Assembly: GCA_018061265.1 (NCBI GenBank)
Contig: JAGOUM010000024.1
Span: forward strand, 1 to 37,927
Reading direction: 5' to 3'
DNA from: Rhodoferax sp.
GTDB taxonomy: Bacteria; Pseudomonadota; Gammaproteobacteria; Burkholderiales; Burkholderiaceae_C
DNA length: 37,927 nucleotides
Part shown: positions 34,859 through 37,774 of the stretch, in pieces
How positions within the stretch are numbered: position 1 is the first letter of the stretch
How the letters are laid out: every line of letters begins with the position of its first letter
Notes under the pieces: generated by a model
Seen by the model: the letters and a program-made list of their open reading frames with translations, nothing else
Database searches by the model: none
What the model was told of the DNA's origin: nothing
Made by a program: the position numbers and the translations under genes

Positions 34859-37774
34859 TCAATCCTTGAAGCTGGGTTTGCGCTTGCCCATGTGCGACAT
34901 CATGGCCTCCTGCAGGTCGTTGCTCATCAGCATGGCAGCGTTCCAGGTGGCCACATAGTTCAGTCCGTCGGCCACCGAGTGGTCGCGGGCATAGGTGATC
35001 ATTTCCTTCACACCCCGCACCGACAAAGGCGACTTGGCTGCAATCGTTGAAGCAATCTCACGGACTCCAGCCGCCATGGCTTCCCGCGTGTCAAAGACGC
35101 GGTTGACCAGACGCATCTGCTGGGCCTCCGCAGCGCTAAAGGTGCGCGCGGTGTAGGCCAGCTCGCGCGCCATGCCCTCGCCAATGAGCTTGGGCAGACG
35201 CTGCAGGGTGCCCACATCAGCGGTCATGCCGATGTCGATCTCTTTGATGCAAAAGCTGGCGTCGGCACTGGCGTAGCGCATGTCGGCGCAGCAAACCAGG
35301 TCGATGCCACCGCCCACGCAGGCGCCGTGGATGGCCGCCAGCACCGGTTTGCGGCAGCGTTCCAGGCTGGTCAGGGTGTCTTGCAGGTCGAGAATCACCT
35401 GGCGCAGGTTTTCGCGGGTGCGGGCTTCGCAGTCGTTTTGAATGCTGTCGCCCAGGCTCATCATCATCTGCAGGTCGATGCCGGCGGTAAACGCCCGGCC
35501 TTCGCCTTCCAGAATGGCCACGCGGGCTGCCGGGGTGGCATCGACCCACTGAAACGCCTTGCGCAGCTCGTGCCACATCGCCAGATTCATGGCGTTGGCC
35601 TTGTCGGGGCGGTTCAGGCGGATGGTGGCAATGTGATCGGCCAGACTGACAGTGAGCGTTTCAAAGCCACCATCGCTATGATTAGTAGTGCTGCCAGCGC
35701 TTTCTGTGATTGGGCTAGAGGCAAATTTGGTCTCTGAAACGGCTGGTGTCAGGCCCCAAGCGAGCGCGAGCTCTGTGCCTTGTTTGATGGCGCGCTTGGC
35801 GTCCAGTTCCTCGGCCACATCGGCACCGCCAATCAAGTGCGTGGTCACACCAGCGGCTTGCAGCTCGGCCTGCAGTTCGCGCTGTGGTTCCTGGCCAGCG
35901 CAGATCACCACGTTGTCCACCGGCAGGGTCAACTCGCGCTCACCCACGGTGATGTGCAGCCCGGCCTCGTCAATCTTGCGGTAGGTCACGCCGGCGAGCA
36001 TCTCGACGGCGCGGTTTTTGAGCGAGGTGCGGTGAATCCAGCCGGTGGTCTTGCCCAGGCCGTCGCCGACCTTGCTGGTTTTGCGCTGCAGCAGCCAGAG
36101 CTTGCGGCCGCTGGGCTCGATATGGGCGGCTTTGAGGCCACCACGTTCGGCGTAGGTGGTGTCAACCCCCCATTCGGCAAAAAACTTGAGGGGGCTTTGG
36201 CTTGGGCTCACGCCGCTGTGCAGCAAGAACTCGGCGGTATCAAAACCAATGCCGCCAGCACCAATCAGCGCCACCTTTTGGCCCACCGGCTTTTTGTCGC
36301 GCAGCACGTCGAGATAACCCAGCACCTTGGGGTGGTTGATGCCCTCGATGGGGGGTGTGCGTGGGCTCACGCCCGTGGCCAGCACCACTTGCTTAAAGCC
36401 CGCAGCGATCAGATCCGCTGCAGCCACCCGCGTCCCGAGCTTGAGGGTGACGCCGGTGGTTTCGATCTGTTTGCCGAAATAGCGCAGGGTCTCAAAAAAC
36501 TCTTCCTTGCCCGGCACCTGCTTGGCGATATTGAACTGGCCGCCAATCTCAGGCGCGGCGTCAAACAGGGTGACGTCGAGCCCGCGCTGCGCCGCAGTGG
36601 TGGCAAACGCCAGGCCCGCCGGCCCAGCGCCCACAACCGCAATCTTTTCGCGTTGTGTCACCGGGGTGATGTTGAGCAGCGTCTCGTGGCAGGCGCGCGG
36701 GTTGACCAGGCAAGAGGTGACCTTGCCGCCAAAAGTATGGTCCAGGCACGCCTGGTTGCAGCCAATGCAGGTGTTGATCTCATCGGCGCGGCCCTGCGCC
36801 GCCTTGTTGACAAACTCCGGGTCGGCCAGAAATGGCCGCGCCATCGAGATCAGGTCGCAATAGCCGTCGGCCAGCAGTTGCTCGGCCACCTCGGGGGTGT
36901 TGATGCGGTTGGTGGCCACCAGCGGAATGCCGACCTTGCCTTTGAGCTGACGTGTCACCCAGGCCCAGGCGGCACGCGGCACCTTGGTGGCGATGGTGGG
37001 AATGCGCGCCTCGTGCCAGCCAATGCCGGTGTTGAGAATGCTGGCACCGGCTTTCTCCAGTGCCTGGGCCAGTTCGACCACTTCAGGCAGTGTCGACCCG
37101 CCTTCCACCAGATCGAGCATGGAGAGCCGGAAAATGATGATGAAGTTAGGACCCACCCGCTCGCGCGTGCGCCGCACGATCTCGACCGGAAAGCGTATCC
37201 GGTTGTGATAACTGCCACCCCATTCATCGTCACGCTGGTTGGTGCGTGCGGCAATAAATTCATTGAGCAGGTAGCCTTCACTGCCCATAATCTCCACACC
37301 GTCGTAACCGGCACTCTGCGCCAAAGCGGCGCAGCGCACAAAGTCGTCGACGGTCTGGTAAACCTCTTCGGTGGTCAACGCTTTGGGCTTCATGGGGTTG
37401 ATGGGCGCTTGTATTGCGCTAGGTGCCACCAGGTCCTGGTGGTAGGCATAGCGGCCAAAGTGCAGGATCTGCATGGCAATCTTGCCGCCTGCGCTATGCA
37501 CGGCGTCGGTGACCACGCGGTGTTTTTCGGCCTCGGCCTCGGTGGTCAGGCGCGCACCCCCGGGCATGGGGCGGCCGCGGTCGTTGGGCGCAATGCCACC
37601 GGTCACGATCAGGCCCACGCCACCTTTGGCACGCTCGGCGTAAAACGCCGCCATGCGGTTAAAGCCGTCTTTGACCTCTTCGAGCCCGACGTGCATCGAG
37701 CCCATGATGACGCGGTTGGGCAGGGTGGTAAAACCAAGCTGAAGCGGGGCCAGCAAATGCGGATAGAGGGTCAT
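34859..37774 (-). CDS. 2,4-dienoyl-CoA reductase (FadH) fused to a dienoyl-CoA isomerase-like crotonase
   Basis: 971 residues. Residues 1-670 match FadH: an old-yellow-enzyme TIM barrel, 4Fe-4S ligands Cys336, 339, 343 and 355 ([10 protein letters not shown], then [13 protein letters not shown]), and an FAD fold with [13 protein letters not shown]. coli FadH is about 672 residues. After a Ser/Thr-rich linker, residues about 704-971 are a crotonase ([12 protein letters not shown], then [19 protein letters not shown]). Its [20 protein letters not shown] matches delta3,5-delta2,4-dienoyl-CoA isomerase (ECH1), including both acids, Glu845 and Asp853. The frame is continuous and I see no internal start for the crotonase. 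The start is the ATG at 37772-37774. The two halves would catalyse successive steps in oxidation of unsaturated fatty acids. Confidence 0.9.
35675..35730 (-). repeat. Repeat-like sequence encoding the fusion linker, copy G
   Basis: On the minus strand the linker region reads AAATTTGCCTCTAGCCC, then AAGCGCTGGCAGCAC, then CTAATCATAGC. This has the same order and spacing of blocks as the six intergenic copies (GCCTCTAGCGC left arm, GCGCT-CAGC right arm, AT-rich end). It encodes residues about 682-700 of the fusion protein (Lys-Phe-Ala-Ser-Ser-Pro onward). It is more diverged than the intergenic copies. Confidence 0.5.

Follow-up and report, generated by a model that had tools for sequence, protein, structure and literature searches.

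The window (the whole 37,927-nucleotide stretch analysed, a contig of a Rhodoferax sp. genome) carries on its minus strand a gene whose ATG lies at 37774 and whose stop codon occupies 34861-34859, and which translates into exactly 971 amino acids with zero stops. Its product consists of a complete FadH (2,4-dienoyl-CoA reductase), a 31-residue linker and a crotonase, in that order, with Pfam placing Oxidored_FMN at residues 7-332, Pyr_redox_2 at 377-657 and ECH_1 at 714-971 (Table 1). The initial annotation had the coordinates right and lacked the strand, and its description of a single in-frame fusion agrees with the stop-free frame.

Table 1. Features of the fusion gene and of the associated repeat, in window coordinates
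Feature	Coordinates	Strand	Basis
fadH-dci fusion gene	34859..37774	-	971 aa, ATG start; one open frame and full-length in-frame relatives
FadH module (predicted), residues 1-672	35759..37774	-	FMN barrel, 4Fe-4S, FAD/NADPH domain; Pfam and 1ps9 alignment
Linker, residues 673-703	35666..35758	-	low complexity, mostly predicted disordered, without start codon
Putative decayed dispersed-repeat copy, encoding linker residues 681-703	35666..35734	-	nhmmer profile
Dienoyl-CoA isomerase module (predicted), residues 704-971	34862..35665	-	Asp825/Glu845/Asp853; NF004794, ECH1 alignments
Best-scoring other repeat copy in the window, outside the gene	9910..9996	+	nhmmer 57.0 bits; in training set

Residues 4-671 match Escherichia coli FadH (1ps9) end to end (E 2.6e-291). 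Cys336, Cys339, Cys343 and Cys355, which we take to be the ligands of the 4Fe-4S cluster, are kept in 51 of 51 aligned fused ORFs, and the FadH dyad, Tyr168/His254 in the window protein, is present in 50 of them, the remaining row being gapped. The corresponding E. coli dyad is named as Tyr166/His252 in the available excerpts of PMC12691678. Resemblance to E. coli FadH thus extends over the whole length, the cofactor domains, the 4Fe-4S cysteines and the Tyr/His dyad; the differences are that the E. coli enzyme is a 72 kDa monomer (PMC12691678, excerpts) and that the 1ps9 chain, at 671 residues, is without an isomerase part. Judged by its domains, full-length alignment, cysteines and dyad, the N-terminal half is a bacterial FadH, and the initial reading of a complete 2,4-dienoyl-CoA reductase with Fe-S cysteines is borne out. 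The 3-enoyl-CoA product proposed with it should be replaced: according to excerpts of PMC12691678, 3-enoyl-CoA is the product of eukaryotic DECR and 2-trans-enoyl-CoA that of bacterial FadH, so that a bacterial-type enzyme with the dyad conserved would be expected to yield the latter. A search of the source genome (89.5% complete) gave no further FadH or isomerase of close similarity; the other long matches are 26-34% identical, and those above this range are short Rossmann-motif stretches only.

The crotonase half scores 406.7 bits against NCBIfam NF004794 (cut-off 308) and aligns with the ECH1-type dienoyl-CoA isomerases 2vre, 8sk6 and 1dci (E 3e-71 to 1e-69). Its Asp825, Glu845 and Asp853 align with Asp176, Glu196 and Asp204 of rat ECH1, presumably the catalytic acids, and the triad is conserved in all 51 fused ORFs, that of L150 among them; it is absent from all four of the other crotonases of the same genome that were aligned, weaker crotonase matches lying outside this comparison. 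Glu845 and Asp853 had already been singled out as an ECH1-type pair, with numbering that the alignment supports, and Asp825 completes the triad. Animal ECH1 (1dci, 2vre, 8sk6) shares the fold, the triad and 43-46% identity in Foldseek rows, and differs in being a free protein of 275-328 residues; its reductase partner in eukaryotes also belongs to another family than FadH (PMC12691678, excerpts). The crotonase fold and the Asp/Glu/Asp acids point to an ECH1-type dienoyl-CoA isomerase, an activity that is predicted. It is quite unlikely that this half instead acts on another substrate, as a hydratase, a 3,2-enoyl-CoA isomerase or an enzyme of some unknown acyl-CoA, as could also hold for the related mycobacterial EchA21: NF004794 names no activity and EchA21 is also close (E 3.7e-62), but the acids are those of ECH1 rather than the Glu/Glu pair that marks hydratases (PMC5834635, excerpts), its closest relatives of solved structure are ECH1 proteins, the FadH partner uses exactly the ECH1 product, and the same triad recurs in the separate isomerase lineage of L150.

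A predicted model of the fused protein, of moderate quality (mean pLDDT 76.7, pTM 0.61, 33-row alignment), recovers by Foldseek 1ps9 for the FadH half (E 8e-80) and 1dci for the isomerase half (E 7e-26), with pLDDT <50 in loops that contain active-site residues, such as 253-268, 338-366 and 846-855. Purifying selection acts on the two enzymatic halves, with dN/dS against 12 fused relatives of 0.06-0.15 for FadH and 0.07-0.17 for the isomerase, and hardly on the linker, whose dN is ~6-15 times that of the domains. Across the fused ORFs the S/A/T-rich linker spans 33-75 residues from anchor to anchor, and the 51 sequences (the window and 50 loci drawn from two overlapping collections, with 10 linkers repeated) contain 41 different linkers of 20 lengths. 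Because of this variability and of the model, in which residues 676-702 have pLDDT <50, a rigid tunnel is unlikely; the substrate channelling proposed at first reduces to a tether at most.

The same linker diversity bears on whether the join is real. An assembly or sequencing error that joined two neighbouring genes could be imagined in a source genome of 261 contigs, but 50 other loci, among them one in the Rhodoferax antarcticus ANT.BR genome (L042), show the join with 40 other linkers of many lengths, so that chance or sequencing error is excluded and an assembly artefact is vanishingly improbable. A hidden stop or sequencing error, which the initial annotation had considered, is contradicted by these loci. 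That all 51 fused ORFs are open follows from the definition of the fused class by its open frame, one of the relative sets comprising the best 80 of 585. The separate crotonase that might arise from an internal start, also considered initially, finds no support in the window gene: the isomerase's old start codon is lost, and a codon scan of residues 654-728 detects zero in-frame ATG, GTG or TTG codons, so a free crotonase would have no conventional internal start here. In some other fused genes (e.g., L107, L042 and L119) the ATG at the old start is kept, and a free isomerase is therefore possible in those.

A search for the same domain order, as first proposed, gives at least 50 further fused loci. 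Within the genus the fusion is full-length in 29 of 89 genomes and partial in nine more; the other 51 do not show it, some of these being incomplete. No full-length fusion except the window's own occurs among the matches listed for samples of the order (300), the class (369) and the phylum (398); these samples overlap and represent distant groups thinly, and the match lists were sorted by score. One genome, G921, has a match over 1-930 with one internal stop. Among plasmids, none of 430 matching records covers 80% of the query at a single place. In the open-access literature, among the matches listed and with few papers covered in full, the fusion was not found described, in keeping with the initial annotation, which knew of none; the available part of PMC13416013 contains nothing on a FadH-isomerase fusion.

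Many relatives, close ones among them, keep fadH and the isomerase as separate genes. Among 187 classified rows, picked for likeness to the fusion and many with short flanks, 95 have an isomerase gene near fadH, including 51 that are fused (window included), and in 91 of the 95 the isomerase follows fadH on the same strand, no more than 700 bases downstream. In many relatives a SnoaL/NTF2-like gene, often itself fused to FadH, lies between the two, and such a gene adjoins fadH in several Pseudomonas, Brevundimonas and Burkholderia loci. A single query found no NTF2-like domain elsewhere in the source genome, an empty answer that shows little. Long open frames, not all of which were retrieved, suggested a triple FadH-NTF2-isomerase fusion; none is present among the 187 classified rows.

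The linker itself appears to have a traceable source. An nhmmer profile of ten other copies of a dispersed repeat matches the window linker with E 2.1e-7 among the fused CDSs and 2.1e-6 in 1.5 Mb, and the reversed-profile control gives no matches. Strict matches to the repeat pattern number 22 in the source genome, the linker included, against none for the reversed pattern and ~0.03 by chance; at E<=0.01 the profile has eight matches in the window, again including the linker. In the 51 fused CDSs there are 18 matches at this threshold, all inside the linkers, whose share of the total length is 5%. Just 14 of the 41 distinct linkers are matched, and those of L051/L052 and L150 are not. The profile was trained on copies found by a 17-base pattern taken from linkers, and likeness inside that pattern is therefore a selection effect; likeness beyond it, matches in other linkers, minus-oriented matches and gap copies were not selected for. 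In some relatives the repeat occurs between the separate fadH and isomerase genes, with E-values computed over a few kilobases, where E<=0.01 is laxer than in the 1.5-Mb search. Compared with shuffled sequences, folding is clearly stronger for two of three copies outside fused genes (z -2.3 and -2.7), weakly so for the third (z -1.5) and no stronger for the linker copy (z +0.84). Of nine other copies in the genome, four lie outside any open frame of >=100 codons and five inside (stop-to-stop frames, genes unconfirmed). Rfam has no match in the window at gathering score. On the strength of the profile matches, the window linker is read as a copy, now decayed, of a repeat dispersed in this genome and is translated in frame. 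Rickettsia palindromic elements and other MITEs in ORFs are likewise short genome repeats translated within proteins (PMC10969869, excerpts), whereas the repeat described here joins two enzymes that are encoded separately in relatives. BRE is also a dispersed repeat, found in Rhodoferax ferrireducens (4) and Polaromonas (up to 29); it averages 69% GC in Bordetella, and is set beside the window repeat by its description in excerpts of PMC3110155 only.

In a 50-row FadH tree the 24 fused rows do not form one clade (AU p 1.5e-27; 6.4e-17 after removal of L051/L052), the trees being quick or FastTree ones with long branches at L044, L082, L150, L175 and L182. The join therefore probably arose repeatedly, more than once in related bacteria, and in L150 FadH is joined to a separate isomerase lineage. 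The clade that holds the window has 31 rows, 30 of them fused and the other, L054, stopping at a contig end, which indicates that the reading frame was maintained despite many differences in linker length. A single ancient fusion, later split in many lineages, is unlikely. Label-change counts cannot separate gain from loss, but such a history would require splits and, besides these, that the NTF2-like gene was inserted at one and the same site, and that gene already adjoins fadH in the loci noted above; in addition, L150 uses the other isomerase lineage, and the repeat in the L148 linker is minus-oriented, an orientation shared with the intergenic copies in the FadH-NTF2 relatives of L148. The join would have arisen when the stretch separating fadH from the isomerase gene downstream of it, with its repeat copy and the old isomerase start, entered the frame, accompanied by loss of the in-between NTF2-like gene and of the stop; the exact order may have differed. 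The repeat-derived linker, the non-single origin and the NTF2-like partner gene go beyond the initial annotation, and a single sequence by itself could not have revealed them.

The window protein has a distant BaiCD match in a profile search. A fusion of comparable design occurs in gut bacteria, and its steroid 5beta-reductase presumably belongs to the broad OYE/FadH family. There, a substrate-preparing 3beta-HSDH/delta5-4 isomerase is fused to the C-terminal end of the reductase in 61 of 257 homologs, and in others it is encoded next to the reductase as a protein of its own, the differences being a Rossmann-fold isomerase, a steroid substrate and, in the excerpts of PMC12238238, no mention of a repeat-derived linker.

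Overall, the gene product is likely one bifunctional auxiliary beta-oxidation enzyme, a tethered isomerase-reductase. The C-terminal domain would convert 3,5-dienoyl-CoA to 2,4-dienoyl-CoA, which the FadH module would reduce with NADPH to 2-trans-enoyl-CoA; the chemical logic of the initial annotation, in which the isomerase product is the reductase substrate, fits the domain identities and catalytic residues. The cell could thereby salvage the 3,5-dienoyl-CoA that forms as a side product when a fatty acid has its double bond at an odd position, as in oleate, and the flexible tether might keep the two modules close together at a constant 1:1 ratio, without forming a tunnel. Separate genes in many relatives indicate that the fusion is not needed. 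Conceivably, it is a neutral accident, with independent enzymes, no catalytic gain and a chain perhaps cut in the linker. This we consider possible but doubtful: the linker is weakly constrained in sequence and length and predicted to be disordered, and close relatives keep separate genes, but 30 of 31 rows in the window's clade are fused despite many linker lengths, the fused rows are not one clade, and the window gene is without the old isomerase start.

As a tethered isomerase-reductase, the fusion is a genetic tie between bacterial FadH and an ECH1-type isomerase. E. coli is without the isomerase, and ~10% of oleate ends as an excreted thioesterase product (PMC9329746, excerpts); excerpts of PMC12691678 report no evidence that its FadH acts at odd positions. 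If active, the enzyme would give bacteria a counterpart of the eukaryotic reductase-dependent route for odd-numbered double bonds, replacing the E. coli way of 3,5-dienoyl-CoA hydrolysis and acid excretion. The decayed repeat in the linker and the repeat in relatives' gene gaps allow the making of a multienzyme to be followed with unusual clarity, and for the value of tethering the 41 naturally occurring linkers, with more than one apparent origin, offer a test set. Our most far-reaching proposal, a real though tentative possibility, is that a dispersed repeat became the tether of two consecutive enzymes on two or more occasions, its orientation in the Rhodoferax clade being opposite to that in the L047/L148/L149 clade, with a product that would place FadH in the odd-bond reductase route. 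If so, intergenic operon repeats may generally supply ready-made disordered linkers for new multienzymes.

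The fusion gene, on the minus strand, is a single 971-codon open frame that encodes, as initially annotated, a complete FadH and a crotonase. Residues 4-671 of the FadH part (residues 1-672) align with E. coli FadH (1ps9, E 2.6e-291), and the alignment retains all of the Fe-S cysteines (336, 339, 343, 355) as well as the Tyr168/His254 dyad. The remainder (residues 703-971) matches NCBIfam NF004794 (406.7 bits against a cut-off of 308) and the ECH1 entries 2vre, 8sk6 and 1dci (E 3e-71 to 1e-69). The ECH1-type pair Glu845 and Asp853 noticed at first reading aligns, together with Asp825, with the catalytic Asp, Glu and Asp of ECH1, which we take to be 176, 196 and 204 in rat numbering. 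At these three acid places, four other crotonases of the same genome align as E/E/G, G/E/A, E/E/T and E/I/A; hydratases are recognisable by Glu at both of the first two (PMC5834635). Both folds are recovered in an AlphaFold model (mean pLDDT 76.7; Foldseek E 8e-80 for 1ps9 and 7e-26 for 1dci), in which linker residues 676-702 fall below a pLDDT of 50. Opposite the FadH part, the other strand also has a long open frame, which showed no sign of being a gene and is probably a by-product of codon use.

Coordinates of the fusion gene, its domains, repeat matches and associated features
Feature	Location	Strand	Reference	Remark
fadH-isomerase fusion ORF	37774-34859	-	window	single ORF
Oxidored_FMN	residues 7-332		fusion protein	domain match
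Pyr_redox_2	residues 377-657		fusion protein	domain match
Antisense open frame	35780-37879	+	window	699 aa
Repeat match	3014-3072	+	window	profile, E<=0.01
Repeat match	9077-9128	+	window	profile, E<=0.01
Repeat match	9910-9996	+	window	profile, E<=0.01
Repeat match	14755-14823	+	window	profile, E<=0.01
Repeat match	17993-18048	+	window	profile, E<=0.01
Repeat match	18902-18969	+	window	profile, E<=0.01
Repeat match	26071-26116	+	window	profile, E<=0.01
Repeat match, linker copy	35666-35734	-	window	profile, E<=0.01
FadH joined to isomerase of separate lineage	1501-4362		locus L150 (genome G412)	

Selection acts on the two enzymes and hardly at all on what joins them. Comparison with 12 fused relatives gives a dN/dS of 0.06-0.15 in the FadH half and 0.07-0.17 in the isomerase half. 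Linker dN is 0.33-1.16, some 6-15 times that of the domains, with linker dS saturated in several pairs; both enzymes are thus kept, the linker being almost free except for its frame. An internal start yielding a separate crotonase, an alternative raised in the initial annotation, was looked for, and no in-frame ATG, GTG or TTG occurs between residues 654 and 728 of the window ORF. Other fused genes retain an ATG exactly at the start of the free isomerase of relatives (for example, ..ACT ATG ACC TAT GAA ACC.. in locus L107); in the window this ATG is lost.

A search for the same domain order, with mapping of its range, shows that the join recurs; in the genus of the window, a full-length fused match is present in 29 of 89 genomes, the window included. 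Nine further genomes of the genus (G307, G308, G314, G331, G337, G348, G351, G363 and G364) have a partial match that spans the join without a stop and is either cut off by a contig end or interrupted inside FadH. Rhodoferax antarcticus ANT.BR has the fusion, downstream of ORFs that, from their translations, we presume to be a tRNA methyltransferase and a pseudouridine synthase (locus L042). Among the matches listed, the fusion occurs in 7 of 399 genomes of the family sample (G000, G303, G304, G467, G603, G501 and G412); the samples drawn at order, class and phylum level show it in the window alone (1/300, 1/369 and 1/398). In several fusion-bearing genomes of the genus, a further FadH with about 50% identity exists as a stand-alone protein (e.g., G304, G306, G342, G343, G346, G348 and G358). 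A search of the window's genome (89.5% complete) revealed neither such a copy nor a second close relative of FadH or of the isomerase.

When the window and 186 loci were sorted by gene arrangement, 51 of the 187 rows had FadH and isomerase in one frame, a class defined by its open frame, so that the openness of all 51 ORFs holds by definition. These contain 41 distinct linkers of 20 lengths (33-75 residues between fixed anchors). FadH shares a frame with an NTF2-like domain in 37 rows, followed by an isomerase gene in 28 and with no isomerase in view in nine. The three genes are all separate in 12 rows; FadH is accompanied by a separate NTF2-like gene in 27, by a separate isomerase gene in four, and stands alone in 56, where neighbours are partly hidden by short flanks.

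Gene order among relatives suggests where the join came from. Aquabacterium-type relatives have separate fadH, NTF2/SnoaL-like and isomerase genes (Pfam SnoaL_2 in L094, 34.4 bits against 27). Many Comamonadaceae and Noviherbaspirillum have FadH and the NTF2-like domain joined in one protein, with the isomerase gene starting a short way behind the NTF2-like part, mostly after 50-175 bases (1.8 kb in L060 and L096); no NTF2-like part was found in the fused FadH-isomerase genes. The fused rows are not one clade: a single clade for the 24 fused rows of a 50-row FadH tree is rejected (p 1.5e-27), also without the L051/L052 pair (p 6.4e-17). They fall into several groups: the main Rhodoferax clade, to which the window belongs, with 30 of its 31 rows in the FadH tree fused and the remaining one (L054) ending at a contig end; L144/L147, whose placement depends on open forks; L046/L047/L148/L149 within the FadH-NTF2 clade; L051/L052; and L150. 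The placement of L044, on a long branch, is unsure. The label changes required number four in the isomerase tree (all forced by starred branches), seven in a 125-row FadH tree (four forced) and five in the 50-row tree (three forced). Such counts are also compatible with fusion genes that may have been split repeatedly; the simplest reading is that the fusion arose repeatedly.

Other arrangements were seen. The isomerase of L150 belongs to another lineage (38% identical, triad kept), the one that lies downstream of fadH and an NTF2-like gene in Paraburkholderia and Burkholderia. Separate isomerase genes, with no NTF2-like gene, lie 48 and 24 bases downstream of FadH in L043 (Aquabacterium) and L082 (Oceanospirillaceae), and 279 and 718 bases upstream in L175 and L182 (same class); the pairing thus extends beyond Burkholderiales. 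The NTF2/SnoaL_2-like protein (~140 aa) is a frequent fadH neighbour in Pseudomonas, Brevundimonas, Burkholderia and Comamonadaceae (L055-L075, L151-L164 and others), and a match among public plasmids, from Eleftheria terrae, carries the annotation nuclear transport factor 2 family protein.

The window linker DNA includes AAATTTGCCTCTAGCCC. Scanning the genome with the pattern AAATNNGCCTCTAGCNC gives 22 matches, linker included (chance expectation ~0.03; reversed pattern, 0). Five of nine examined copies lie within open frames of at least 100 codons, stop to stop (L195, L196, L197, L199 and L201; 106-509 codons). A profile built from these nine copies and the window copy at 9910-9996, leaving out the linker copy, matches the window linker at E 2.1e-7. 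With eight matches at E<=0.01 in 38 kb, the repeat family is dense in the window; Rfam gave no family matches there. Across the 51 fused coding sequences, 18 ORFs (14 of the 41 distinct linkers) match at E<=0.01, all within linkers, which make up 5% of coding length, and none elsewhere; the reversed profile gave 0 matches. Over 1.5 Mb of loci plus the window, some loci being duplicates of each other, the profile gave 47 matches at E<=0.01 and its reverse none.

Plus orientation accounts for 17 of the linker matches (Rhodoferax clade) and minus for one (L148, 3.1e-6), with weak minus matches in L047 (0.031) and L149 (0.18) and none in L051, L052 and L150. In FadH-NTF2 relatives with a separate isomerase gene, the repeat occupies the gap before that gene in 17 of 26 at E<=0.01, always minus; this count leaves out L060 and L096 (gaps >400 bases), in which the 1.5-Mb scan places a minus copy just before the isomerase. 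The three-separate-gene type has it in 0 of 12 gaps. Because of these minus copies, the L148-type linker looks, from sequence, like a former gap that came to be read through. Three copies outside fused genes fold better than shuffles, two clearly (z -2.3, -2.7) and one weakly (-1.5); the window linker copy folds no better (z +0.84), as one would expect if this copy has been decaying while serving as coding sequence.

The initial annotation knew of no such enzyme, and among the matches listed from open-access literature no description of a FadH-isomerase fusion was found. The nearest precedent is a gut-bacterial fusion of 5beta-reductase with 3beta-HSDH/delta5-4 isomerase, in which the isomerase is likewise C-terminal and makes the substrate of the reductase (PMC12238238). 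In-frame translated repeats are known from Rickettsia, and a review calls the same conceivable in other prokaryotes (PMC10969869). Both kinds being known, what is new here is the enzyme pair, which was probably joined on more than one occasion and whose tether contains a repeat.

The contig stretch ends upstream of the fusion gene, and the downstream genes do not look like beta-oxidation genes; from their translations, we take them to be of GGDEF/EAL type and, for the large one, pyruvate phosphate dikinase. The genome has three 3-hydroxyacyl-CoA dehydrogenase domain matches above cut-off. We infer an activity, a benefit of the tether and an oligomeric state for the fusion protein; by analogy with E. 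coli FadH, its product should be 2-trans-enoyl-CoA (PMC12691678). According to the same paper, a role of E. coli FadH at odd positions is not supported by evidence (PMC12691678). E. coli is without a dienoyl-CoA isomerase, and about 10% of oleate becomes 3,5-cis-tetradecadienoyl-CoA, which is hydrolysed and released (PMC9329746). An isomerase and a FadH on one chain would supply both the step missing in E. coli and its follow-on.
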